From positions 1,116,001 through 1,180,000 of the forward strand of contig NZ_CP131935.1 of the NCBI RefSeq assembly GCF_030704305.1: a stretch of 64,000 bases of DNA, read 5' to 3'. The translations under genes and the position numbers were made by a program. This document shows, piece by piece, positions 19,758 to 34,392 of this stretch; within the stretch, counting starts at the first letter, position 1, and each line of letters begins with the position of its first letter. Source of the stretch: Massilia sp. R2A-15 (GTDB lineage Bacteria; Pseudomonadota; Gammaproteobacteria; Burkholderiales; Burkholderiaceae_D). A model generated the notes under the pieces. It did not search any database. It saw only the letters and a program-made list of their open reading frames with translations, and was not told where the DNA came from.

Positions 19758-20825
19758 CTATTTCGAGTGAACTGTCCCGCGCAGCTTGCCGACGATCCCG
19801 GTCGGGAAGAAGTAGATCGACAGCACGAACAGCACCCCGAGCCACAGCATCCAGCGGTCCGGATGAAGCGCATCGGACAGGATCGGAATGCCGGCCAGCG
19901 CCGGCGCGCTGTTCGCCATCAGCGTCTTCAAATAATTCTGCGCGACGATGAACAGGGCGGCGCCGATCACCGCGCCGTACATGGTGCCCATGCCGCCAAT
20001 GACGACGATCAGCAGGATGTCGGTCATCACCTCGAAGCCGAGCATGGTCTTGGGCCCGACGTAGCGCAGCCACAGCGCCATCAGCGCGCCGGCCAGCGCC
20101 GCCACCAGTGCCGCCAGGCAGTTGGCCCAGATGCGGTAGACCATTGTCCGGTAGCCCAGCGCTTCGGCGCGGAACTCGTTCTCGCGGATCGCCTGCAGCA
20201 CCCGGCCGAACGGCGAATTCACGAGCCGCAGCAGGAACAGGAACAATAGCAGGCAGCCGAAGAACACGATGTAGTAGGTAATTAGCTTGCCGTCGATGGC
20301 GCGGCCCGCGATCTCGTTTTCGATCAACCGGAAACCGGGCGACAGCAGTTCCGGCACGCTGAAGGTCTTGCCATCCTCGCCGCCGGTAAAGTCCGATAGC
20401 TGCGACGCCAACACGGCGAACGACGCCGCCACCGCCAGCGTGATCATGGCGTAGAAGATGGCGCGCACGCGCAGCGCGAACAGGCCGACGATCAGTGCCA
20501 GCACGATGGTCAGCATCAGCGCGAGCACGAGGCCCGTCGCCGCGCCGCTCCATCCCGGCGTGTCGCCGGACAGTCCCAGGCCGACGCCATACGCGCCGAT
20601 CCCGAAGAACATGGTGTGCGCGAACGAGACGATGCCGGTGTAGCCGAGCAGCAGGTCGTACGACGCCACCAGCACGATATAGATGCAGATGGTGGCGGCG
20701 GTGTTGAGCGGCCGCGCGCCGGAGGTCAGGAAGGGCGCGAACGCCAGGCCGAGGAACACGGCGATCAGCGCGGCGCCAAGCACGCGGCTGCGCGGCAGGT
20801 CGCCGGAGAAGAGTTGGTTGATCAT
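19758..20825 (-). CDS. livM: Branched-chain amino acid-type ABC transporter permease LivM
   Basis: Second permease of an HAAT-family importer, inner membrane, about 355 residues from the ATG at 20825 (MINQLFSGDLPRSRVLGAAL). The frame continues upstream antisense to nothing real and reads through livH in another frame. Family motifs are GYTGIVSFAHTMFFGIGAYG, AIRENEFRAEALGYR with the EAA-like loop, and GGMGTMYGAVIGAALF. About nine to ten membrane segments. It is the last gene of the operon, 8 bases after livH. Confidence 0.92.
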   Translation of the reverse strand: MINQLFSGDLPRSRVLGAALIAVFLGLAFAPFLTSGARPLNTAATICIYIVLVASYDLLLGYTGIVSFAHTMFFGIGAYGVGLGLSGDTPGWSGAATGLVLALMLTIVLALIVGLFALRVRAIFYAMITLAVAASFAVLASQLSDFTGGEDGKTFSVPELLSPGFRLIENEIAGRAIDGKLITYYIVFFGCLLLFLFLLRLVNSPFGRVLQAIRENEFRAEALGYRTMVYRIWANCLAALVAALAGALMALWLRYVGPKTMLGFEVMTDILLIVVIGGMGTMYGAVIGAALFIVAQNYLKTLMANSAPALAGIPILSDALHPDRWMLWLGVLFVLSIYFFPTGIVGKLRGTVHSK

Positions 20826-20833
20826 GGCAAGTC

Positions 20834-21880
20834 CTAGCGCCGTGCGTTGGAAAACAGGCCGGCCGGGCGCCACAGCAGCACGGCGATCATCAGGCCGATG
20901 TTCGATACCAGCGCCAGTTTCGGCGCAAGGAAGCCGGCGTAGTTGGCGACCAGCGCCATCAAGAGGGCGCCGATGAAGCAGCCGCCGACCGATCCGAGCC
21001 CGCCGATGATGATGACGATGAATATCATCACCATCACTTCGCTGCCCATCGAGGCGCTCAGCGTCTCCTTGTACAGGCCCCACATCACGCCGCCCAGTCC
21101 CGCCAGCGCGGAGCCGGCCGCGAACACCGCGACGAACAGGCGCCGCACGCGGTAGCCCAGCGCCTCGACCATCTCGCGGTTTTCGACGCCGGCACGAATC
21201 AAGAGGCCGATCTTGGTGCGGTTCAGCACCAGGAACATGGCCGCGAACACCACCAGCCCGACCGCCACCGCGACCAGCCGGTATTTTTCGATCGCCGCGT
21301 CGCCCAGCACGATGGCGCCGCGCAGGCTGGCAGGCAGCGGCAGCGCGATGTGCTCGGCTCCCCAGATCACGCTGATCAGCTGTTCGGCGACGATCATGCC
21401 GCCCATCGTGATCAGGATCTGCTTCAGGTGCTGGCCGTAGACCGGCATGATGATGACGCGCTCGAACGCCCACCCGAGCAGCGCGGTGACGAGCATCGCC
21501 ACCAGCATCGCCAGCCCCAGCACACCGAGATTGAGCAGCAGCGAATCGGCTTCCAGCCAACCGTGCATCGGCAGCAGCACCATCGTGGCCGCGTAAGCGC
21601 CGACTGCGACAAACGCGCCATGGCCGAAATTGAGCACGTCCATCAGGCCGAACACCAGCGTCAGGCCGCTCGACATAATGAAGATCATCATGCCCATCGC
21701 CAGGCCGGCGACGGTGAGCGTGATCCAGGTCGGAAAGCTGCCTACCAGCGGCAGCATCGCCAGCATCAGGGCGGGGACCAGCAGCAGCGGGGCGATGTCG
21801 CGCCTGGCCGCCGGCAGCGCGGCGTCCGGCGCGGCGGGCAGAATTCCCTTCGGCAGGGTCGGAGGAAGTACGGAAGTCAT
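20834..21880 (-). CDS. livH: Branched-chain amino acid-type ABC transporter permease LivH
   Basis: First permease of the HAAT-type importer, 348 residues. A 30-residue hydrophilic N-terminal extension (MTSVLPPTLPKGILPAAPDA) precedes the membrane segments. LTLVFGLMDVLNFGHGAFVA is the LivH signature, ENREMVEALGYRVRR is the coupling loop to the ATPases, and GGLGSVGGCFIGALL is conserved near the C-terminus. It lies 10 bases after livF and 8 bases before livM. Confidence 0.92.
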   Translation of the reverse strand: MTSVLPPTLPKGILPAAPDAALPAARRDIAPLLLVPALMLAMLPLVGSFPTWITLTVAGLAMGMMIFIMSSGLTLVFGLMDVLNFGHGAFVAVGAYAATMVLLPMHGWLEADSLLLNLGVLGLAMLVAMLVTALLGWAFERVIIMPVYGQHLKQILITMGGMIVAEQLISVIWGAEHIALPLPASLRGAIVLGDAAIEKYRLVAVAVGLVVFAAMFLVLNRTKIGLLIRAGVENREMVEALGYRVRRLFVAVFAAGSALAGLGGVMWGLYKETLSASMGSEVMVMIFIVIIIGGLGSVGGCFIGALLMALVANYAGFLAPKLALVSNIGLMIAVLLWRPAGLFSNARR

Positions 21881-21890
21881 GGCGCAGGTC

Positions 21891-22619
21891 CTATTGGTGC
21901 GCGTCGAGCGAGAGCCCGAGCAGGCGCTGTTGCAGTTCGTCGTCCTCGACCAGGTCGCGCATGGCGCCGGCGTGCACGATGCGGCCGTCGTCCATCACCG
22001 ACACGGTGTCGCCGAGCGATTTGACGAAGCTGAAATTCTGCTCGACCAGCAGGATGGTGGTGGTTTCCTTCAGTTCGCGGAAGGCGGCGATCAGGCTCTG
22101 GATGATGGCCGGCGCCAGGCCCTTGGTCGGCTCGTCCACCAGCAGCAACTTGCGCGGCTCGACGATCGCGCGGGCGATCGCCACCATCTGCTTCTGGCCG
22201 CCGGACAGGTTGCCGGCCGGGTAGTGCCAGAATTTTTTCAGCGCCGGGAAGAAGCCGAAGATCCATTCGACGCGGGCGTCGTCGAGCGGGCCGCTGCGCG
22301 CGGCCAGCAGCAGGTTCTCGCGCACGGTCAGGTCGGAGAACACCGCCATCGATTCAGGCACGTAGGCGATGCCGGCCTGCGCGATGTCCGGCGTGGAGAC
22401 CTTGCCGATCTCGCGGCCGTCGAAATTGATGTTGCCGGCGCTGGCCTGCCATAGTCCCATGATGGTGCGCAGCGTCGTGGTCTTGCCGGCGCCGTTGCGG
22501 CCCAGCAGGACCGACAGGCCTCCGCGCGGCACTACCAGGTCGACGCCTTGCAGGATGTGGTATTCGCCGATGTGGGTGTGGACGCCGGAGAGCGTCAGGA
22601 TCGGTTCCTTGTCATGCAT
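21891..22619 (-). CDS. livF: ABC transporter ATP-binding protein LivF
   Basis: 242-residue ATPase of the HAAT importer, on the cytoplasmic side with LivG. Walker A LLGRNGAGKTTTLRTIMGL, signature LSGGQKQMVAIARA and Walker B KLLLVDEPTKGL are all intact, followed by the switch His region LLVEQNFSF. The start overlaps the livG 3' end by 8 bases. Confidence 0.93.
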   Translation of the reverse strand: MHDKEPILTLSGVHTHIGEYHILQGVDLVVPRGGLSVLLGRNGAGKTTTLRTIMGLWQASAGNINFDGREIGKVSTPDIAQAGIAYVPESMAVFSDLTVRENLLLAARSGPLDDARVEWIFGFFPALKKFWHYPAGNLSGGQKQMVAIARAIVEPRKLLLVDEPTKGLAPAIIQSLIAAFRELKETTTILLVEQNFSFVKSLGDTVSVMDDGRIVHAGAMRDLVEDDELQQRLLGLSLDAHQ

Positions 22620-23379
22620 GTTCGGGTGTTCCCAGATAAGCTTCCTGCACGATCTTCGACGACATCACCTCGGCCGGCGCGCCGTCGGCGACCAGCGCAC
22701 CGTTGTGCAGCACGATGATGCGGTCGGCCAGCCGGCGCACAACGTCCATCTTGTGCTCGACCAGCAGGATGGTCTTGTTGCGCTCTTCCTTCACTTGGGC
22801 GATCAGGTCCAGCACCACCGGCACTTCGTCAACGCTCATGCCGGCGGTCGGCTCGTCGAACATCATCACCGCCGGTTCCAGCGCGAGCAGGATCGCCACC
22901 TCCAGCTTGCGCTTGTCGCCGTGCGACAGCGCCGCCACGCGCATGTCGCGCTTGCCGGCGAGTGCGACGCGTTCGAGGTAATGGCCGGCGCGCTCGATCA
23001 GGTCCTTGTGGCCGGACCAGACCGAGAACATGTTCATGCCCACGCCCGCGCGGCTCTGGACCGCCAGGCGCACGTTCTCGATCACCGACAGGTTGGGGAA
23101 CAGGTTGGTGAGCTGGAAGGCGCGGCCGATGCCGAGCCGGGTACGCCGCGCGGCGCCGTGCCTGGTGACGTCGGCGCCGCCGAAGTGCACGCTGCCTTCG
23201 GTCGCCGCCAGCTGCCCCGACATCAGGTTGAAATAGGTGGTCTTGCCGGCGCCGTTCGGGCCGACGATGACGGTCAGCGTGCCGGGATAGAAGTCGGCGG
23301 TGACGTGATCGACCGCGACGTGGCCGCCGAAGCGGATGGTCAGGTCGCGGGTCGACAGCGAGGGACTGCGTTCGCTCAT
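22612..23379 (-). CDS. livG: ABC transporter ATP-binding protein LivG
   Basis: 255-residue ATPase. Walker A is VGPNGAGKTTYFNLMSGQL; the signature is ALSHGDKRKLEVAILLAL, the HG variant common in LivG and urea-type importers; Walker B is AVMMFDEPTAGMS, followed by LLVEHKMDVV. It begins one base after the stop of the binding-protein gene and overlaps livF by 8 bases, so the two ATPases are made together. Confidence 0.93.
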   Translation of the reverse strand: MSERSPSLSTRDLTIRFGGHVAVDHVTADFYPGTLTVIVGPNGAGKTTYFNLMSGQLAATEGSVHFGGADVTRHGAARRTRLGIGRAFQLTNLFPNLSVIENVRLAVQSRAGVGMNMFSVWSGHKDLIERAGHYLERVALAGKRDMRVAALSHGDKRKLEVAILLALEPAVMMFDEPTAGMSVDEVPVVLDLIAQVKEERNKTILLVEHKMDVVRRLADRIIVLHNGALVADGAPAEVMSSKIVQEAYLGTPEHA

Positions 23380-23380
23380 G

Positions 23381-24556
23381 TCAGCGCTTGTTCTTCACGG
23401 GCAGCGGAATCTCGCTGGCCGGGATCTCGCGCACCAGTTCGAGCAGGTCCCACTCGCTCTTCTGGTCCTTCTTGATGCGGAAGTGGTACATCGGCTGCAG
23501 CGCCTGGTGGTCCGCCTTGCGGAAGGTCATCTTGCCCTTCGGCGTATCGAAATCCATGCCCTCCATCGCCGCGATCAGCTTCTCGGTGTCGCCGGAACCG
23601 GCCTTGGTCAGCGCCGTGACCACCGCGCTGGCGGCGGCGAAACCGCCGGCGGTAAACATGTCGGGCGGCGCCTTGTAGCGCTTGGTGTGCTCGGCGACCA
23701 GCCAGTCGTTCATTTTGTTCTTCGGGAAGGCATAGTAATAATAGATGGTGCCCTCGGTGCCGGCGAAGTTCTTCCAGGTCTTCATCACCGGCAGGATGTT
23801 CCCGCCCGGCGCCAGCACGATGCCGTAACGCTCCGGCTTCATGTCGGCGAGTTTGTTCATCGGGCTCGGGCCGGCCCATACGATGGTCAGCACGCGCGGC
23901 TGCGGCTTGTCCTTCAATGCGTCGAACAGGCGCTGCGCCGATGCGGTGAAGTCGGTCGTGGCCTGCGGCGCGTATTCCTCGTGCACCACCTTCGCCTTGC
24001 TCTTGACCGCCACCAGCGCCTCCTTGGCCGCCTTCACGGCGTCGCGGCCGAAGGCGTAGTCCTGGGCCAGGAAGCCGTAGCTGCCGCTCGGCGCGATCGT
24101 CGCGGCGGCCATCGCATCCTGCATCGAGCTGCGCGCGGTGCGGAAAACGTAGCGGTTCCACTTGTCGCCGGTGATCGCATCGGCCACCGCCGGCTCGACC
24201 ACCAGCACCTTCTTGTATTCGGCCGCCACCGGCAGCATCGCGATGGCCGAGCCCGACGAACTGGTGCCCACCGCGATGTCCACCTTGTCGTCGCCATAGG
24301 CTTCGGCCAGCAGGGTGCGTCCCATGTCCGGCTTGCTCTGGTCGTCCTTGACGATCACCTTCAGCTTGCGGCCGTTGATCTCCATCTTCCCGCCGGTCAG
24401 GTACTCAAGGCCCATCAGGAAGCCGGTCTCGGTCTCCTTCGCATACGGCTCGAGCGCGCCGGTCTTGCCGGCGATGAGCGCGATCTTCAGGTCGGCGGCG
24501 GATGCGAGCGCCGGCGCGAAGGCAGCGGCAATCAGGATGGGCAGCAGTTTTTTCAT
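23381..24556 (-). CDS. Periplasmic substrate-binding protein of the HAAT importer
   Basis: 391-residue Leu/Ile/Val-binding-type protein (type I periplasmic fold). Signal peptide MKKLLPILIAAAFAPALASA. The N-terminal lobe starts DLKIALIAGKTGALEPYAKE, and VGTSSSGSAIAMLPVAAEYK is the typical ligand-loop region. Such proteins also bind aromatic acids, amides and other small molecules, so the ligand should not be assumed to be an amino acid. It sits between the dehydrogenase gene (10-bp gap) and livG. Confidence 0.9.
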   Translation of the reverse strand: MKKLLPILIAAAFAPALASAADLKIALIAGKTGALEPYAKETETGFLMGLEYLTGGKMEINGRKLKVIVKDDQSKPDMGRTLLAEAYGDDKVDIAVGTSSSGSAIAMLPVAAEYKKVLVVEPAVADAITGDKWNRYVFRTARSSMQDAMAAATIAPSGSYGFLAQDYAFGRDAVKAAKEALVAVKSKAKVVHEEYAPQATTDFTASAQRLFDALKDKPQPRVLTIVWAGPSPMNKLADMKPERYGIVLAPGGNILPVMKTWKNFAGTEGTIYYYYAFPKNKMNDWLVAEHTKRYKAPPDMFTAGGFAAASAVVTALTKAGSGDTEKLIAAMEGMDFDTPKGKMTFRKADHQALQPMYHFRIKKDQKSEWDLLELVREIPASEIPLPVKNKR

Positions 24557-24566
24557 GTGGTCTCCG

Positions 24567-25310
24567 TCATAGTGTCAGGCCGCCCGTCACTTCGAGCGTG
24601 GCGCCGTTAATGTAGCTTGCTTCGGACGATAGCAGGAACACCGCCGCTGCGGCGATCTCGCGCGGCTGTCCCATGCGTTTTTGCGGTATCTGCGACACCA
24701 TCTCGTCGATCACGCGATGCGGCATCTTGCCGAGGATCGGCGTTTCGATGAAGCCGGGGCAGATGGCGTTGCTGCGCACGCCTTTGCGTCCCAGCTCGCG
24801 CGCCCAGGTGCGGCTCATTCCGAGCACGCCGGCCTTGGCCGCGGCGTAATTGGTCTGGCCGAAATTGCCCGACAGGCCGACGATCGACGAGATGTTGACG
24901 ATCGCGCCGGCGCTTGCCAGCAGCGCATCGACGCTGGCGCGGGTGCAGTTGAACACGCCCTTGAGGTTGATGCCGATGACGCGGTCCCACTGCGCCTCGG
25001 TCATTTTCGCCAGCTGGGCGTCAGCCACCACGCCGGCGTTGTTCACCAGGCCGTCGATGTGGCCGAAGCGCGCCAGCGTGGCCTTGACCGCGTCGTGCAC
25101 GGCCGCGAGGTCGGAGACGTCGACGATGAAGCCGGCCGCCTGCGCGCGCGGGGCGCGGTCGGCGATCCGTTCCAGCGCGCCGGCGATGGCGTCGGCCTGG
25201 TAGTCCCAGACCGCGACGCTGGCGCCGTTTTCCGCGCAGCGCTCGGCGATCGCCAGGCCGATGCCCTGCGCGCCGCCGGTGACGATGACGACCTTGCCCG
25301 CAAGGTTCAT
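24567..25310 (-). CDS. Short-chain dehydrogenase/reductase (FabG-like)
   Basis: 247 residues from the ATG at 25310 (MNLAGKVVIVTGGAQGIGLA); the open frame upstream is antisense-like filler. Classical SDR: TGGAQGIG nucleotide loop (11-18), NNAG at 90-93, Ser141/142 in NISSIVG, Tyr155 and Lys159 in YAAAK, PGFIETPI after the active site. Asp36 after the second strand suggests an NAD(H) preference, which is inference. It closely resembles 3-oxoacyl reductases but is far from fatty-acid genes; here it lies between an alpha/beta hydrolase (17-bp gap) and an importer, so oxidation or reduction of an imported hydroxy or keto compound is more plausible. Confidence 0.9.
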   Translation of the reverse strand: MNLAGKVVIVTGGAQGIGLAIAERCAENGASVAVWDYQADAIAGALERIADRAPRAQAAGFIVDVSDLAAVHDAVKATLARFGHIDGLVNNAGVVADAQLAKMTEAQWDRVIGINLKGVFNCTRASVDALLASAGAIVNISSIVGLSGNFGQTNYAAAKAGVLGMSRTWARELGRKGVRSNAICPGFIETPILGKMPHRVIDEMVSQIPQKRMGQPREIAAAAVFLLSSEASYINGATLEVTGGLTL

Positions 25311-25327: not shown

Positions 25328-26200
25328 TCAATCTACGCTCCCGAGAAAGTCGCGCAGCGCCAGTTGCGCCGCCGGTTCGGTCAGCATCGGCGCGTGGCCG
25401 ACGTTGGGCACTTCGGCGTAGGCCATGGCCGGCGCGGACGCGCGCATCAGCGCCACCTGCTCCGGCTCGACCAGGTCGGACAGCGCGCCGCGGATCAGCA
25501 GGGTGGGGCGGCGGCGCGCCAGGCGGCGGAACGCAAACCGCGCCAGCAGCGAGCTCGGTTTGACCGCGCCGCCGCGGATCGCGATGCCGATGTCGGGGTC
25601 GTAGTTCATGACCAGCTGGCCGGGAGCCGTCTCGCGGAAGGCGCGGCGCGCCCACTTGTACCAGTCGTCGGCAGTGTTGTCGGGGAAGGCGACTGCGTTG
25701 ATGGCGCGTACGTGCGCGGCGGCGTCTTCCCACGAGCCGATGGCCTCGACCTTGCCGGCGTAACCGGCGATGCGCTGCAGGCCGCGCACCGACAGCGCCG
25801 GGCCGACGTCGTTCAGAACGGCCGCGCCGATCAGGTGCAGGTGGCGCATCGCCAGGGTCATCGTGATCAGGCCGCCCATCGAGGTGCCGACGAAGACGGC
25901 GCGCGCGATGCCCAGGTCGTGCGCCAGCTTGACGATGTCGTCGGCGTAGACCATCAGGTTGTAGTGGCTGGGGTCGGGATCGTAGTCGGAGTGGCCGCGC
26001 CCGCGCACGTCCACCGCCAGCACGCGCCGGCCCTGGGCGGCGATCCATGGCGCCACCTCGTCGAAGTCGGCCGAATTGCGCGTCAGCCCGTGGATGCAAA
26101 TGACGGGCAGCCGCGCCGGGCCGCTGGCCGGGGCGTAGTCGCGCGCGAACAGGCGCAGTCCATCGGTGCTTTTGAAGCTTGTCTCGGTGTGGTTGGACAC
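25328..26200 (-). CDS. Alpha/beta hydrolase, first gene of the uptake operon
   Basis: About 290 residues from a GTG at 26200 (MSNHTETSFKSTDGLRLFAR); no in-frame ATG lies nearby and the next Met is inside the fold. No signal peptide, so cytoplasmic. Fold markers: CIHGLTRNSADF oxyanion region, VDVRGRGHSDYDPD, nucleophile elbow GTSMGG with Ser107, Asp242 in RGALSDLVEP, His269 in VGHAPML. The triad is complete. An esterase, lactonase or C-C hydrolase is possible; sequence alone does not decide. It leads a seven-gene operon with a dehydrogenase and ABC importer, with a TGTGCA-N4-TGCACA site centred 93 bases upstream. Confidence 0.87.
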   Translation of the reverse strand: MSNHTETSFKSTDGLRLFARDYAPASGPARLPVICIHGLTRNSADFDEVAPWIAAQGRRVLAVDVRGRGHSDYDPDPSHYNLMVYADDIVKLAHDLGIARAVFVGTSMGGLITMTLAMRHLHLIGAAVLNDVGPALSVRGLQRIAGYAGKVEAIGSWEDAAAHVRAINAVAFPDNTADDWYKWARRAFRETAPGQLVMNYDPDIGIAIRGGAVKPSSLLARFAFRRLARRRPTLLIRGALSDLVEPEQVALMRASAPAMAYAEVPNVGHAPMLTEPAAQLALRDFLGSVD

Positions 26201-26285
26201 ATGCGCCCCGTGTGATGGGTTTCTCGTTAGGCAGCAGTGTGCGCCAAAAGGCAGCCGTGCGAAAGGCAAGGCAGCGCCCAACCTT

Positions 26286-26301
26286 TGTGCATTAATGCAC
26301 A
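26286..26301. promoter_or_regulatory. Operator-like palindrome 1, upstream of the hydrolase operon
   Basis: Perfect dyad TGTGCATTAATGCACA, centred 93 bases upstream of the hydrolase GTG. The same TGTGCA-N4-TGCACA pattern occurs at 26377 and 29833. Probable binding site of the adjacent LysR-type regulator. Confidence 0.75.
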
Positions 26302-26376
26302 GCCCGCGCGACCCTGTCTGCTGCAGCGCAATGACGAAACACGTCACGCCGCGCCATGAAGCGATTGCCTTACGGT

Positions 26377-26392
26377 TGTGCACTGATGCACA
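26377..26392. promoter_or_regulatory. Operator-like palindrome 2, upstream of the lysR-type gene
   Basis: TGTGCACTGATGCACA, dyad extended by T and A on its outer sides, ending 9 bases before the regulator's ATG. Its position over the probable core promoter or leader suits autorepression. Confidence 0.75.
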
Positions 26393-26401
26393 ATAGGCCG
26401 C

Positions 26402-27349
26402 ATGAAAACCTTGCCTGAATGGACAGACCTGCGGTTCTTCCTCGAGCTGGCGCGCGCCGGCACCCTGTCCGGCGCATCGCGCGGGCTGGAGGTGGAGCAC
26501 ACCACGGTGGCGCGCCGCATCGACCGCCTCGAAGTGCAGCTGGGATCGACCTTGTTCGACCGTTCGCGCGAGGGCTACGAGCTGACCGAGATGGGGCTGG
26601 CGCTGCTGCCGCACGCCGAAGTGATGGAAAGCGCGGCGCTGGCGGCGCAGGATCAGCTCTCCGGCAACCAGGTCGAAGTGCGCGGCGTGGTGCGCCTCGG
26701 CGTGCCCGAGGTGCTGGGCGTGCGCGTGATCACGCCGCTGCTGGCGCGCTTCCTGGCCGACCATCCGGACCTGTCGATCGACCTGCTGGTGCAGCCGCGC
26801 TTTGCCAACCTGGCCAACCGCGAGGCCGACCTGGGCGTGACGCTGGACGCGCCCAACACCGGTCGCTACATGGTGACGCGGCTGGCGTCGTTCCGGCTGT
26901 ATTTATATGGTTCGCCGGCCTACCTGGCGCGGCATCCGCCGATCCTGCGCCAGTCCGACCTGGCCGAGCACGACTTCGTCGATTACGTGCAGGACCGCCT
27001 GGCCAGCAATGAGCTCAATTTCCTCGACGCGCTCGGGTTCACTCCGAAGCGGCGCCTGTGCTGCACCGGCATGATGGCGCAGGCCGAAGCCGCTGCCGCG
27101 GGTCTGGGACTGATGATGGCGCCGCCGTATGTGATTCCGGACGACGGGCGGCTGGTGCCGATCCTGCAGGACGAAGTGTTCGCCGAGCGCGCGTACTGGA
27201 TGGTGGCGCCGGTGGACCTGTACCGGCTGCCGCGGGTGAGGGCGGTGTGGAACCTGCTGCGCGAGTATGCCGATGCGCAGCCGGAGCTGTTCGTCCATGG
27301 TGGCGCGCAGGCCGCAAAAAAAACATGGGGCCAGGTCCAGCGGACCTGA
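26402..27349 (+). CDS. LysR-family transcriptional regulator
   Basis: 315 residues. N-terminal winged helix-turn-helix (about 8-66: LRFFLELARAGTLSGASRGL, HTTVARRIDRLEVQLGSTLF) followed by a LysR substrate-binding domain (about 95-295). Divergent from the hydrolase-dehydrogenase-importer operon and followed by a TonB receptor gene, so it probably controls both in response to the imported compound or a metabolite. Three copies of one 16-bp palindrome mark these promoters. The C-terminus (WGQVQRT and the stop) is supplied by a hairpin repeat at 27327-27353, so the last residues are not native to the family. Confidence 0.92.
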   Translation: MKTLPEWTDLRFFLELARAGTLSGASRGLEVEHTTVARRIDRLEVQLGSTLFDRSREGYELTEMGLALLPHAEVMESAALAAQDQLSGNQVEVRGVVRLGVPEVLGVRVITPLLARFLADHPDLSIDLLVQPRFANLANREADLGVTLDAPNTGRYMVTRLASFRLYLYGSPAYLARHPPILRQSDLAEHDFVDYVQDRLASNELNFLDALGFTPKRRLCCTGMMAQAEAAAAGLGLMMAPPYVIPDDGRLVPILQDEVFAERAYWMVAPVDLYRLPRVRAVWNLLREYADAQPELFVHGGAQAAKKTWGQVQRT

Positions 27350-27353
27350 CCCC
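27327..27353. repeat. GGGGTC-type hairpin repeat, copy 8 (supplies a stop codon)
   Basis: Arms GGGGCCAGGTCC and GGACCTGACCCC around AGC. The TGA in the right arm (27347-27349) is the stop codon of the LysR-type gene. Confidence 0.85.
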
Positions 27354-27362
27354 GGGATGCCG

Positions 27363-27386
27363 GCGGCGCGGGAACACCCGCGCCGC
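27363..27386. terminator. GC-rich hairpin after the TonB receptor gene
   Basis: Perfect 10-bp stem GCGGCGCGGG / CCCGCGCCGC with loop AACA, 6 bases past the receptor stop codon. No T run follows on either strand, so termination is uncertain. Confidence 0.4.
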
Positions 27387-27391
27387 GTCCC

Positions 27392-29728
27392 TTAGAACTT
27401 CATGTTGACCGTCGCCTTGATGGTGCGCGGATCGCCGTAGAACGTGGTGATCGAGTTGAAGAACGCGCCGAACGGATAGCCGGCCACCTTGTAGCGCTTG
27501 TCGCCCAGGTTGCGCCCGTGGATGCCCACCTGGACCTTGCGGTCCGACCGGGTCCAGACCATGCCCGCGTCATACAGGGTATAGCCATCCTGCGCCAGCA
27601 TCAGGTTCTGCGGCACCACCACGTCGAGCGCCGCGATACCCGTGTTGCGGATGATCTCGGCCTGGTACACCTTGCTCTTGTACGAGGCGCCGCCCATGAA
27701 CGAGATCGTGCCGGAGCGGCCCGCCATCGTCATCGGCATGTCGTAGGACGCCGACAGGTTGGCCGCGTTCTTCGGCGTGTTCTGGAATTCGGCCATGCCT
27801 GCGATATTGATCAGGCCCGTGCCGTTGGCGACCATCCACTCCTTGTACTTGGCGTCGATATGGCTGTACATGGCCGACAGGTTCAGGGCCGACGTCACGT
27901 GCGCCACTGCTTCGAGTTCGATGCCCGAGATCTTGGCCTTGCCGGCGTTGGTCAGCGAGCCGGCAAAACCGGTCACCACACCGGCCGAGTTGTAAGTGGC
28001 CAGCGAGCCGGGAATCTGAATGTTCTTGTAGTCGGAGTAGAAGATCGCCGCGTTGGTCTGGAAGCGGCCGCCCATCATGGCCGACTTGATGCCCAGTTCG
28101 AACGAGTTCACCTCTTCCGGATTGACGCCCTGGCGCTTGGTCATCGATGCCGCGGTGGTCGGGCCGCCGGTGGCGGCGAGATCCATGCGCGGATCGAACA
28201 TGCCGCCCTTGAAGCCTTGCGACAGCGTGCCGTACATGTTGTGCTCGGGCGCGAACTTCCAGCCGAAGCCCAGTTTCGGCGTGAACTTGGTGTCGGTGCG
28301 GTGCAGGTCGTCCTTGCCCAGGTCCGTGTTCGCCGCGCCGCCGACCGCGGCCGGATTGCCCAGCGTCGGCGAGCCGGCCAGGCCCAGGTAGGTCTTCTTG
28401 AAGATGCGCGCGCGGCGCTCGTCATGGGTGTAGCGGCCGCCCAGGGTGACGCTGAAGGTGCTCGAGACGTTGTAGTTGGCGTCGGCGAACGCGGCCCAGG
28501 TCCTGGTGTCGATGTCGTCCATCGTGTACAGCGACAGGCCGCCGGCGGCGTTATACAGCACGTCGAATTCGTTGAACGCGTTGGCCTTCATGTAGAACAG
28601 GCCCGCCACGCCCTGCAGGCGATCGCCGGACAGGGTGAACTGGAATTCCTGGCTGTCCTGCTTGTCGCGGTAAATGGTCGGCGCTTCCCACGACGCGGTG
28701 TTGAGCGAGTCGAAATCGATCGGCGCGAAGGTGTCCGAGCCGCGGTGCGCGGTGATCGACTTGAACGACAGCGTCGGGCTCATGGTGTAGTCGACCAGCA
28801 GCGAGGCGCCCCTGGTGATCACCTGCTGGTCGTGGCCGTTGACCTTGTACAGGTTGGCGCGGGTGTTGTAGTCGCCGGCCAGCGGCGGCAGGTTGTCGGG
28901 CGCCGGGCCTGGGGTCAGGCGATAGCCCTGGCGCGGATTCGAGTCGTCCACGGTGCGGTCGGCGGCAACCCGGATGAACAAGTCGCTGTTCGGTGTCGCT
29001 TCGATGCTGACGCGGCCGGCCGCGACGTTCTTGTCGTAGTTTTCCTTGCCGTTGACGACGTTCTTGCCGAAACCGTTGTGGTTGAAGGTTGCGGCGGTGG
29101 CGCCGATGCGCACCGTGTCCGACACCGGCACGCTGCCCTTGAGGACCAGATCCTTCTCGTGCCAGCTGCCGAGGGTGGCCTTGACATCGAACGTCATCGT
29201 CGGCGCCAGCTTGCGGGTGACGTATTTGACGGCGCCGCCGATGGTGTTGCGGCCGTACAGCGTGCCTTGCGGGCCGCGCAGGATCTCGATGCGTTCGAGG
29301 TCGTAGATGTCGGTCAGCGCGCCTTGCGGGCGGGCCAGGTAGATGTCGTCGAGGTAGATGCCGACGCCTTGCTCGTAGCCGGCCACCGGGTCCTGCTGGC
29401 CGACGCCGCGGATAAAGGCGGTCAGCGTGGTGTTGGTGCCGCGCGAGGTTTTCAGGGTGGTGTTCGGGACCGTGTCCGCCACCGCGGCGAGGTCGGGGAT
29501 GGCCTGCTTTTCCATTTGGGCGCCGGAGATCGCGGTGACCGACCCTGGCACGTCCTGGATCAGTTCCGCGCGGCGGCGCGCGGTAACGATCACCTTATCG
29601 AGCTCGCGGGTGGCGCTTTCTTCGGTCGTGACTTGCGCGTATGCCGTTGACCACGACACGGCGGGAATCGCCATGATGGCAGCGACGGACCGGCGCAGCA
29701 TTGTCTTCTGTTTGTTCGACATACGCAT
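27392..29728 (-). CDS. TonB-dependent outer-membrane receptor
   Basis: 778 residues. Signal peptide (SVAAIMAIPAVSWSTAYA), then a TonB-box-like LDKVIVTARRR, the plug (about 50-160: QDVPGSVTAISGAQMEKQAI, RIEILRGPQGTLYGRNTIGG) and a 22-strand-type barrel to the terminal Phe (ATVNMKF). It actively imports substrates too large or scarce for porins, using TonB-ExbBD energy. Resembles the broad iron-complex/nutrient receptor class common in sphingomonads and Oxalobacteraceae; substrate cannot be read. It lies beside the LysR-type regulator and ABC importer and has a TGTGCA-N4-TGCACA site 112 bases upstream, so it is likely the outer-membrane half of the same uptake route. Confidence 0.93.
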   Translation of the reverse strand: MRMSNKQKTMLRRSVAAIMAIPAVSWSTAYAQVTTEESATRELDKVIVTARRRAELIQDVPGSVTAISGAQMEKQAIPDLAAVADTVPNTTLKTSRGTNTTLTAFIRGVGQQDPVAGYEQGVGIYLDDIYLARPQGALTDIYDLERIEILRGPQGTLYGRNTIGGAVKYVTRKLAPTMTFDVKATLGSWHEKDLVLKGSVPVSDTVRIGATAATFNHNGFGKNVVNGKENYDKNVAAGRVSIEATPNSDLFIRVAADRTVDDSNPRQGYRLTPGPAPDNLPPLAGDYNTRANLYKVNGHDQQVITRGASLLVDYTMSPTLSFKSITAHRGSDTFAPIDFDSLNTASWEAPTIYRDKQDSQEFQFTLSGDRLQGVAGLFYMKANAFNEFDVLYNAAGGLSLYTMDDIDTRTWAAFADANYNVSSTFSVTLGGRYTHDERRARIFKKTYLGLAGSPTLGNPAAVGGAANTDLGKDDLHRTDTKFTPKLGFGWKFAPEHNMYGTLSQGFKGGMFDPRMDLAATGGPTTAASMTKRQGVNPEEVNSFELGIKSAMMGGRFQTNAAIFYSDYKNIQIPGSLATYNSAGVVTGFAGSLTNAGKAKISGIELEAVAHVTSALNLSAMYSHIDAKYKEWMVANGTGLINIAGMAEFQNTPKNAANLSASYDMPMTMAGRSGTISFMGGASYKSKVYQAEIIRNTGIAALDVVVPQNLMLAQDGYTLYDAGMVWTRSDRKVQVGIHGRNLGDKRYKVAGYPFGAFFNSITTFYGDPRTIKATVNMKF

Positions 29729-29832
29729 TACAGTCTCCTCTGGTTTATGTTCTTGTATGCGTGCTTATACGCATTGCAATAGAGTGTGCCGCGTTTATCT
29801 GTTGATTTAAAGATAGAGGCTTGCACGGCCTG

Positions 29833-29848
29833 TGTGCAAAATTGCACA
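29833..29848. promoter_or_regulatory. Operator-like palindrome 3, upstream of the TonB receptor
   Basis: TGTGCAAAATTGCACA, centred 112 bases upstream of the receptor ATG. The arms are identical to those at 26286 and 26377; only the N4 centre differs. Confidence 0.75.
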
Positions 29849-29938
29849 ACAGGGTGTCCGAGGCTGCAGCGGTGCAGAGGGAAGCGTGGTGGCGTAGCAG
29901 ATTTGCAACACTGAAGCGTGAGCCCACCCTTCAGCACC

Positions 29939-31069
29939 CTAGCGGAAGGGATTGCGCTCGTTCAGCTCGTCGATGTAGTCGTCGATGCCGCCGGCCTCGC
30001 GTTCGAGGAAGCGCTCGATAGCGTCGGCGAACGCGGGATGCGCCAGCCAGTGCGCCGACCAAGTCCGGGTCGGCAGAAAGCCGCGCGCCATCTTGTGCTC
30101 GCCCTGGGCGCCGCCTTCGAACGCGGCTATACCTTGCTCGATGCAGAATTCCAGCGGCTGGTAGTAAGCCGTTTCGAAGTGCAGGCAGGGCACGTATTCG
30201 AGTTCGCCCCAGTAGCGGCCGAACAGCGTGTCCTCGGAGTGGATCACCAGCGACGAGGCGATCGGCTTGCCGTCGCGCTCCGCGATCACCAGCAGGATAT
30301 TCTGCGGCATGGTGCGGCCGATGCGCTGGAAAAAATCCAGGTTCAGGTAGGGCGTCGAGTGGTGCGCCGCGTAGGTGTGCTTGTAGCAGCGGTTGAACAG
30401 GCGCCAGTCGGCGTCGGTCGCATCGATCCCGCGCACGCGGCGCAGCGTGACGCCGGCCTCGCGCACCTTGCGCCGCTCCGCGCGAATGTTCTTGCGTTTC
30501 TTCTGTTCGAGCGTGGCGAGGAACTCGTCGAAGTCCTTGTAGCCGGCGTTCAGCCAGTGGAACTGCACGCCGCTGCGCAGCATGAAGCCGGCGCCGGCCA
30601 GCATCTGCGCCTGGTCTTCCGGCGGGTACAGGATGTGGGTGGACGACACCGCGGACGCCTTCTGGGTCGCGAGCAGCACCTTGACCAGGGCGGCGCGCGC
30701 ACGCGCATCGACCGCCATCAGGCGCGGTCCGGTGACGGGCGTGAACGGGATCGCCGACAGCAGCTTGGGGTAGTACTCCAGGCCATTGCGATGGTAGGCG
30801 TCGGCCCAGGCCCAGTCGAACACGTATTCGCCATACGAGTGCATCTTGACGTACAGCGGCATGGCGGCGGCCAGCTCGTCGCCGTCGAACAGGGTGATGA
30901 ACTGCGGCTGCCAGCCGGAGTCCGCGCTGGCGCTGCCCGACTCGTGCAGCGCATGCAGGAAAGCGTAGGACAGGAAGGGATTGGCGCGCTCCTGCGCCAG
31001 CGCCAGTCCGTCCCATGCGGCCTGGCCGATCTCCGACAGAGAAGAAACGATATGCGTGCGATAATTCAT
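29939..31069 (-). CDS. FemAB/GNAT-like protein (DUF482 type)
   Basis: 376 residues from the ATG at 31069 (MNYRTHIVSSLSEIGQAAWD); earlier in-frame starts add an unlikely Cys-rich lead. Contains the conserved blocks of the peptidogalycan/DUF482 family: NPFLSYAFLHALHESGSA near the N-terminus, KKRKNIRAERRKVREAGV in the middle, and FETAYYQPLEFCIEQGI with GAQGEHKMARGFLPT near the C-terminus. The family has a GNAT-like fold and is often annotated as N-acyltransferase; no substrate is established. Cytoplasmic by lack of signal. It is divergent from nadE with 74 bases between. Confidence 0.85.
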   Translation of the reverse strand: MNYRTHIVSSLSEIGQAAWDGLALAQERANPFLSYAFLHALHESGSASADSGWQPQFITLFDGDELAAAMPLYVKMHSYGEYVFDWAWADAYHRNGLEYYPKLLSAIPFTPVTGPRLMAVDARARAALVKVLLATQKASAVSSTHILYPPEDQAQMLAGAGFMLRSGVQFHWLNAGYKDFDEFLATLEQKKRKNIRAERRKVREAGVTLRRVRGIDATDADWRLFNRCYKHTYAAHHSTPYLNLDFFQRIGRTMPQNILLVIAERDGKPIASSLVIHSEDTLFGRYWGELEYVPCLHFETAYYQPLEFCIEQGIAAFEGGAQGEHKMARGFLPTRTWSAHWLAHPAFADAIERFLEREAGGIDDYIDELNERNPFR

Positions 31070-34346: not shown

Positions 34347-34374
34347 AAAACGCGTGCGCACTGGTGCGCACGCG
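34347..34374 (-). terminator. Rho-independent terminator of the PEP-CTERM gene
   Basis: Perfect 11-bp stem with arms CGCGTGCGCAC and GTGCGCACGCG around a 2-base centre, followed on the minus strand by TTTT. It begins 18 bases after the stop codon at 34393. Confidence 0.75.
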
Positions 34375-34392
34375 TCAGGTTTGCCGCTGCCG

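Follow-up and report, generated by a model that had tools for sequence, protein, structure and literature searches.

The closest described relatives of the system treated here are two LysR-type regulators and their operators. PcaQ of Sinorhizobium meliloti has an even dyad of 16 bp with four bases at its centre (ATAACC-N4-GGTTAT) and controls an ATP-binding cassette (ABC) uptake system. MmsR of Pseudomonas denitrificans has the half-site consensus AATGTGCAA, which contains TGTGCA, acts from two operators centred at −79 and −28, and responds to a 3-hydroxy acid, as described in the available passages of PMC6441110. In a 64,000-nt stretch of Massilia sp. R2A-15 (NZ_CP131935.1, positions 1,116,001 to 1,180,000; the window below), the palindrome TGTGCA-N4-TGCACA occurs three times around a LysR-type gene (lysR), a divergent hydrolase operon with a Liv-type transporter, and a TonB-dependent receptor gene. 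This dyad resembles that of PcaQ in its even N4 spacing, its length of 16 bp and the ABC uptake system predicted to be under control, but the arms differ and the window LysR scores 48.7 bits against the TIGR02424 cut-off of 303.8 bits. It agrees with MmsR in the half-site TGTGCA, a likeness of operator description, whereas the MmsR operator, in the parts of that paper covered, is AATGTGCAA-N15-TTGCACATC (N15 between 9-mers instead of N4) and its target is mmsA. The window LysR passes PF00126 (54.9 bits) and PF03466 (123.7 bits), and stays below the cut-off of the GcvA model NF008352 (97.8 against 288 bits). Neither the dyad, in several notations, nor a Massilia locus of this kind was found in the open-access literature, and the passages of PMC5343134 covered name no such motif. 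The first-pass annotation had suggested a distinctive specificity for the regulator, because the dyad is not the usual T-N11-A box; the dyad is indeed of another type (no pair among its invariant positions fits T-N11-A when read from the sequence), but PcaQ is already a precedent for an even N4 dyad.

It is highly probable that the palindrome is the operator of the adjacent LysR-type protein, through which this protein would activate its targets and repress lysR in a regulon for scavenging poly(3-hydroxybutyrate) (PHB). That the substrate is PHB or 3-hydroxybutyrate oligomers is, taken by itself, reasonably probable. The three copies stand where they had been reported, with their centres: 26286-26301 (TTAA), 26377-26392 (CTGA) and 29833-29848 (AAAT). 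A scan of the whole genome (G000, 5,028,452 bases) returned these three as the only exact copies, all at the locus, plus two copies with one mismatch elsewhere; the reversed pattern, used as control, occurs at one place at ≤1 mismatch, and base composition predicts 0.18 exact dyads per genome and 0.002 per window. At ≤3 mismatches the window has 12 dyads, fewer than the 29.7 expected, and shows no enrichment, so the signal resides in the exact copies. Site 2 lies 9 bases before the lysR ATG (26402), as had been stated; sites 1 and 3 lie 85 and 104 bases, and not 93 and 112 bases, upstream of the probable hydrolase GTG start (26200) and the TonB-receptor ATG (29728) respectively. A second TGCA-N4-TGCA near site 3 (29865-29876) was dropped, being absent from that place in the 9 relatives compared; it reads GCTGCAGCGGTGCAGA (29863-29878) and lies 30 bases centre-to-centre from site 3.

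The operator reading is supported by the co-occurrence of dyad and regulator, which, like the sequences, positions, conservation and family assignment of the depolymerase, was observed directly. Among 100 genomes, 9 have a close LysR orthologue; they account for 21 exact dyads, of which 19 are at this locus. A search for many unrelated hits at chance frequency, which could have undermined the idea of an operator, thus did not do so. One of the two remaining dyads (in G004) fronts a PHB depolymerase. The 91 genomes lacking a close orthologue hold 12 exact dyads in total, and the reversed pattern was found 3 times in all 100. Eleven of the 12 outside dyads were inspected, and none had CACACT, the predicted −10 box of the target promoters, at the required place; this inspection did not extend to the G016 hit, nor to one of the three dyads of G058, which lies some 10 kb from the depolymerase of that genome. 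In 245 genomes of the family, where an orthologue was defined by an identity of at least 61% (51 genomes qualify), the combination of dyad and CACACT was present in 40, with 1 or 2 per genome, and the reversed pattern in 0/245. All 40 belong to the 51 genomes with an orthologue, against 0 of the 194 others (Fisher p ~3e-36, uncorrected for relatedness), and all 51 hits lie ≤6,917 bases from lysR. Very probably, the dyads are docking sites of the neighbouring LysR-type protein.

The features referred to below are as follows (window coordinates, strand, description).

26286..26301, minus: site 1, predicted operator dyad of the hydrolase/SDR/Liv operon (SDR, short-chain dehydrogenase/reductase), predicted centre ~−65
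26275..26280, minus: TGGGCG, a weaker third half-site at a conserved position, 5 bases past site 1
26259..26264, minus: predicted weak −35, TTTCGC (inferred; a consensus promoter scan found none)
26236..26241, minus: CACACT, predicted to be the −10 box for the hydrolase operon; begins 45 bases beyond site 1
25328..26200, minus: alpha/beta hydrolase, first operon gene, GTG start inferred (Pfam PF00561, PF12697)
24567..25295, minus: SDR-family dehydrogenase (FabG / 3-hydroxyacyl type), start approximate
23381..24556, minus: Liv-type periplasmic substrate-binding protein (PF13458; PDB 3n0x and 3nnd relatives)
22612..23379, minus: ABC ATPase (LivG-like)
21891..22619, minus: ABC ATPase (LivF-like)
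20834..21880, minus: ABC permease (LivH-like)
19758..20834, minus: ABC permease (LivM-like), start approximate
26377..26392, plus: site 2, dyad between the lysR −35 and −10, predicted autorepression site
26365..26370, plus: predicted lysR −35, TTGCCT (TTGC at this spacing in 36/55 relatives)
26389..26394, plus: predicted lysR −10, CACAAT, which shares bases with the right arm of site 2
26402..27349, plus: LysR-type regulator, proposed binder of all sites (PF00126, PF03466)
29833..29848, minus: site 3, predicted operator dyad of the TonB receptor gene, predicted centre ~−65
29822..29827, minus: third half-site CGTGCA downstream of site 3
29783..29788, minus: CACACT, predicted to be the −10 box for the TonB receptor gene; begins 45 bases beyond site 3
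27392..29728, minus: TonB-dependent outer-membrane receptor (PF00593, PF07715)

The hydrolase operon is divergent from lysR, as in other systems of LysR-type regulators. Its binding protein is close to the Rhodopseudomonas structures 3n0x and 3nnd, for which no ligand was found in the literature passages covered, including those of PMC3223731. The SDR gene is part of the operon in the window and in loci L006-L008 and L010, and was not found in the operon of the other mapped relatives. On a Hoeflea plasmid (L125:7917-13496), a binding protein, a Liv transporter and an alpha/beta hydrolase stand in a single run that adjoins genes for a coenzyme A (CoA) ligase and enoyl-CoA hydratase; no LysR or TonB genes are seen in the stretch shown. 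Elsewhere in the window, a long perfect hairpin around TGCGCA-CTGG-TGCGCA (34350-34375) lies directly 3' of a gene stop and resembles a terminator stem; the gene ending there is presumably PEP-CTERM-like.

Conservation was followed in 69 loci: 55 with the LysR start present and an identity of at least 71%, 7 at 45-47% and 5 at 26-28%; L058 and L067, in which the LysR gene is cut by a contig end, were left out of the lysR-promoter counts. The closest named relatives are Massilia eurypsychrophila (LysR 95% identical) and M. psychrophila (94%). The dyad is found upstream of each predicted target unit in 55/55 of the first group, and its arms are maintained, unlike the centres and flanks, which vary. 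At ≤1 mismatch, 113 sites, 96 of them exact, are present in the window plus 56 relatives (L006-L060, L068), and every one belongs to one of two promoter classes. In class A (71 sites, 67 with CACACT), CACACT, or CAAACT or CAGACT, lies 44-46 bases from the dyad; in class B, AT follows the dyad directly and the site is located 15-115 bases before lysR. The number of class-A sites tracks the arrangement of the TonB gene, whose positions were taken from a tblastn map: exactly two in 14/14 loci with a separate TonB unit (window included), exactly one in 42/42 loci where the TonB gene heads the hydrolase operon, and one in the truncated L058. This indicates that the operators followed the promoters through gene rearrangement.

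On the target side the distances are nearly fixed. The spacing from the dyad to the start of CACACT is 45 bases in 58 cases, 44 bases in 5 and 46 bases in 4; no CACACT is found elsewhere within 80 bases on this side. If CACACT is taken as the −10 box and the start is assumed 7 bases downstream of it, the dyad centre would fall at about −65, and this is the position predicted for sites 1 and 3. About −65 is the usual activation position of LysR proteins, and activation classically involves a dyad at this place together with a weak −35. Between dyad and box, agreement with a TGTGCA-like third half-site is highest at offset 6, with means of 4.07/6 matches in 27 non-redundant sites and 4.46/6 in 13 distant ones, against 1.5 when all offsets are averaged. 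At the −35 place the window has TTTCGC and TTTAAA, and distant loci have TTG-type sequences.

The predicted lysR promoter is built differently. Here AT stands directly after the dyad, so that the right arm forms part of CACAAT, which is present within 150 bases upstream of lysR in 53/55 relatives; the TTGC −35 at 18 bases is present in 36/55, and the lysR-proximal dyad at ≤1 mismatch in 41/55. In the window, the end of the −10 box and the ATG are 7 bases apart (26389-26402), which predicts a leaderless lysR transcript starting at or next to the ATG; a gap of 6-7 bases is found in 17 of the 53 relatives having CACAAT. In Duganella-like loci (L012:7945-8001 and similar) the left dyad arm is lost and the right arm with CACAAT is kept, and autorepression may differ there. 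The earlier proposal that the positions suit activation of the two transport units and autorepression of the regulator agrees with this promoter geometry of the relatives.

A predicted target was also found outside the locus. One of the two copies with one mismatch (L005, G000:C1:4610299-4610314) lies 3.47 Mb from the locus and 169 bases before the ATG of a depolymerase gene. It had initially been rejected, having no CACACT; the decision was reversed because a third half-site (CGTGCT) and, starting 45 bases on, TAGAAT stand between it and the depolymerase, which makes it a candidate target. The other copy, L004, was excluded: its third half-site is poor, and at 44-46 bases there is only a 4/6 box match. 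Its neighbour is a gene which we take to be a Rieske-type oxygenase. The claim that the palindrome marks all three promoters thus holds within the locus, while the regulon probably has a further member outside it. The product of the new gene (G000:C1:4608399-4610192) passes NCBIfam NF050058 (196.3 against a cut-off of 150 bits) and the PHB depolymerase family model TIGR01840 (240.9 against 107.85 bits). By family model it is an extracellular type-1 depolymerase of short-chain-length polyhydroxyalkanoates (PHA), with PHB hydrolysis predicted. This fourth target passes the same models as secreted type-1 PHB depolymerases; it has an fn3 linker, an N-terminus that by eye resembles a signal peptide, and a best PDB relative named 'Esterase, PHB depolymerase family'.

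A depolymerase match is present in 35 of the 245 family genomes. In loci of genomes with a LysR orthologue, the dyad (≤2 mismatches) precedes the depolymerase in 21/23, of which 20 come from the main scan (18 of these at ≤1 mismatch) and one, L190, was read separately; the exceptions are L188, without dyad, and L175, cut 423 bases upstream of the active-site motif. It is absent before the depolymerase in 7/7 loci of genomes without the orthologue, 6 of them fully informative (L202 has only 78 bases upstream). The dyad combined with TAGAAT occurs in 7/245 genomes, all 7 before a depolymerase by coordinates, and in none with the reversed control. Among the 20 depolymerase promoters, the third half-site GTGC is kept in 18 and a −10-like box (at least 4/6) at 43-46 bases is present in 12. 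In 12 depolymerase promoters that were read, TAGAAT or TAGACT starts 44-45 (4) or 54-55 (8) bases after the dyad. A shift from 45 to 55 bases is about one helical turn, as would be expected if the regulator must face RNA polymerase. In L181, L184, L187, L191, L192 and L195 the −10 box lies about 10 bases farther from the dyad than elsewhere, a natural one-turn shift.

More distant LysR proteins show what is shared beyond these gene neighbourhoods. Twelve loci with a LysR 42-48% identical (7 of the 69 loci above and 5 annotated plasmid records; Azoarcus, Aromatoleum, Achromobacter, Caballeronia, Cupriavidus, Paraburkholderia and Agrobacterium) have, in 11 cases, the same TGTGCA-N4-TGCACA dyad as putative operator, but their neighbours, by annotation or as read from the sequence, are CoA-transferase, enoyl-CoA hydratase, and GntP or other Liv transporters, and not the hydrolase or TonB genes. 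No hydrolase or binding-protein match was found in the 12; there is one partial 32% TonB match (L064), and SDR or Liv paralogues at 26-36% occur in several. The dyad (≤1 mismatch) lies 23-28 bases before lysR in 7/12 and elsewhere in the cluster in 4/12 (L062, L069, L128, L131), with none in L066. In six of those 7, the divergent side shows a −10-like box (4 or 5 of 6) at a distance of 44 bases, so that a single operator could act on both promoters. In six sites on the CoA-transferase side, the match at offset 44-45 is 4-5/6 in five and 3/6 in one. Since these relatives keep the operator beside other genes, the operator follows the regulator.

In 25 further LysR loci (37-46% identity), TGCA-N4-TGCA is found 23-54 bases before the gene in 21, and the other 4 have a one-mismatch dyad at 40-66 bases. 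None of 13 less related loci (28-36%; L090, with truncated start, and L092, at a contig end, were excluded from this outgroup control) has TGCA-N4-TGCA within 120 bases, though L099 has a one-mismatch TGTGCA-N4-TGCACA 43 bases upstream; L132 (LysR 39%) has no dyad. The outer bases follow the LysR tree: the 20 rows of TG-type cluster together, with a single change and in 88% of bootstrap trees, and so do the 4 rows of TA-type, while TT and mixed TT/TG need 3 changes each, in a tree of about 100 columns that includes near-copies and carries hand-made labels, some taken from a target promoter. The recognition helices are mostly EH[ST]TV[AS]RR, DHSTVSRR, NQST[LI]SRR and DQTTVSRR, with L131 (QHTTVARR) as exception. 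The subfamily may have a core TGCA-N4-TGCA whose outer base pair (TG, TT, TA, CC) would change with the recognition helix.

The scheme that follows is what we infer about LysR binding, the boxes of the promoters, activation or repression, the inducer and PHB as substrate. The palindrome would be a high-affinity operator of the adjacent LysR-type regulator. In front of the hydrolase/SDR/Liv operon, the TonB gene and the depolymerase, the dyad would act with the third half-site 5 bases on and the −10-like box 45 bases on; with the dyad near −65, regulator and inducer together should recruit RNA polymerase. At lysR the −35 and −10 flank the dyad, whose right arm forms part of the −10, and binding should block lysR. 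The secreted depolymerase would cleave PHB and the outer-membrane receptor take the released oligomers; the periplasmic binding protein and ABC importer, and then the cytosolic hydrolase and 3-hydroxyacyl-type dehydrogenase, would process the products. Scavenging of PHB breakdown products is the likely role of the regulon. We know of no TonB or ABC import of PHB fragments.

Several observations weigh against this scheme. As to promoters, the region 26150-30000 gave no sigma-70 promoter in a strict consensus scan, which leaves the boxes unsupported, although the lack of a consensus promoter also fits activator dependence; CACACT and CACAAT match TATAAT at 3/6 and 4/6. As to sites, the lysR-proximal dyad has at least 2 mismatches or was not found in 14/55 relatives, and no site at ≤1 mismatch is present in L066, L067 and L070-L074 (LysR identity 45% or 26-28% in L066 and L070-L074). 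As to the substrate, the window hydrolase is below the intracellular PHA depolymerase model NF050089 (49.2 against 300 bits) and the SDR below the cut-off of 3-hydroxybutyrate-dehydrogenase models; feruloyl and acetylxylan esterases share the PHB-esterase fold and are lower-scoring PDB relatives of the depolymerase; and a depolymerase match is present in only 15 of 30 orthologue genomes picked from the 51.

The regulon could be as described but serve another ester or carboxylic acid, which we consider unlikely. The missing family assignments of hydrolase and SDR, the half of the 30 genomes without a depolymerase, and related binding-protein units near acyl-CoA genes would all suit such a substrate. 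PHB is favoured by the depolymerase that passes the type-1 PHA model and by the dyad at its promoter in nearly all orthologue loci, and the distant LysR relatives stand by 3-oxoacid CoA-transferase genes, as expected for the use of 3-hydroxybutyrate and acetoacetate. It is improbable that the LysR protein binds these sites but acts as a repressor everywhere. Many LysR proteins do repress without inducer, and a TGCACA-like half-site overlaps the target −10 too (offset 43, orthologue set); however, a dyad near −65 with a weak −35 belongs to activation, and boxes at 45 or 55 bases keep the same helix face.

Still less probable is that another transcription factor binds the dyad and the LysR gene is a mere neighbour. 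The even dyad is unlike the textbook LysR box, and binding by LysR is itself a prediction from sequence. Yet the distant loci share LysR at this level, and not the hydrolase or binding protein, and keep the site; genomes lacking the regulator have the dyad at background level; the outer half-site bases follow the LysR tree; and depolymerases in genomes without the orthologue lack the dyad. Finally, an explanation of the palindromes as RNA hairpins or as pieces of a terminator, or of their conservation by short divergence time only, is hardly credible: a 6-bp dyad with a 4-base loop can fold, and a terminator-like match overlaps site 3, but the predicted start is downstream of the class-A dyads, whose spacing from the −10 is kept in 27 non-redundant downstream sequences, and arms are kept where centres and flanks vary.

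Returning to the LysR operator reading, it can be widened. One LysR would then run complete PHB scavenging (depolymerase, TonB oligomer receptor, Liv importer and oligomer hydrolase), with TGCA-N4-TGCA as the code of its subfamily and a dual-promoter operator, where one site would both activate from −65 and block the lysR −10; the window lineage would use separate copies for these tasks. This combination has somewhat less than an even chance of being correct as a whole.

Taken together, an anonymous palindrome becomes a predicted operator, and a LysR group present in many genomes of Massilia, Duganella and Undibacterium gains both a geometry of its promoters and a probable role. Should the PHB reading be true, it would provide a regulator and an import route for the breakdown products of a natural bioplastic. 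The shared TGCA-N4-TGCA core with its clade-specific outer bases could also let the sites of many unannotated LysR proteins be predicted.

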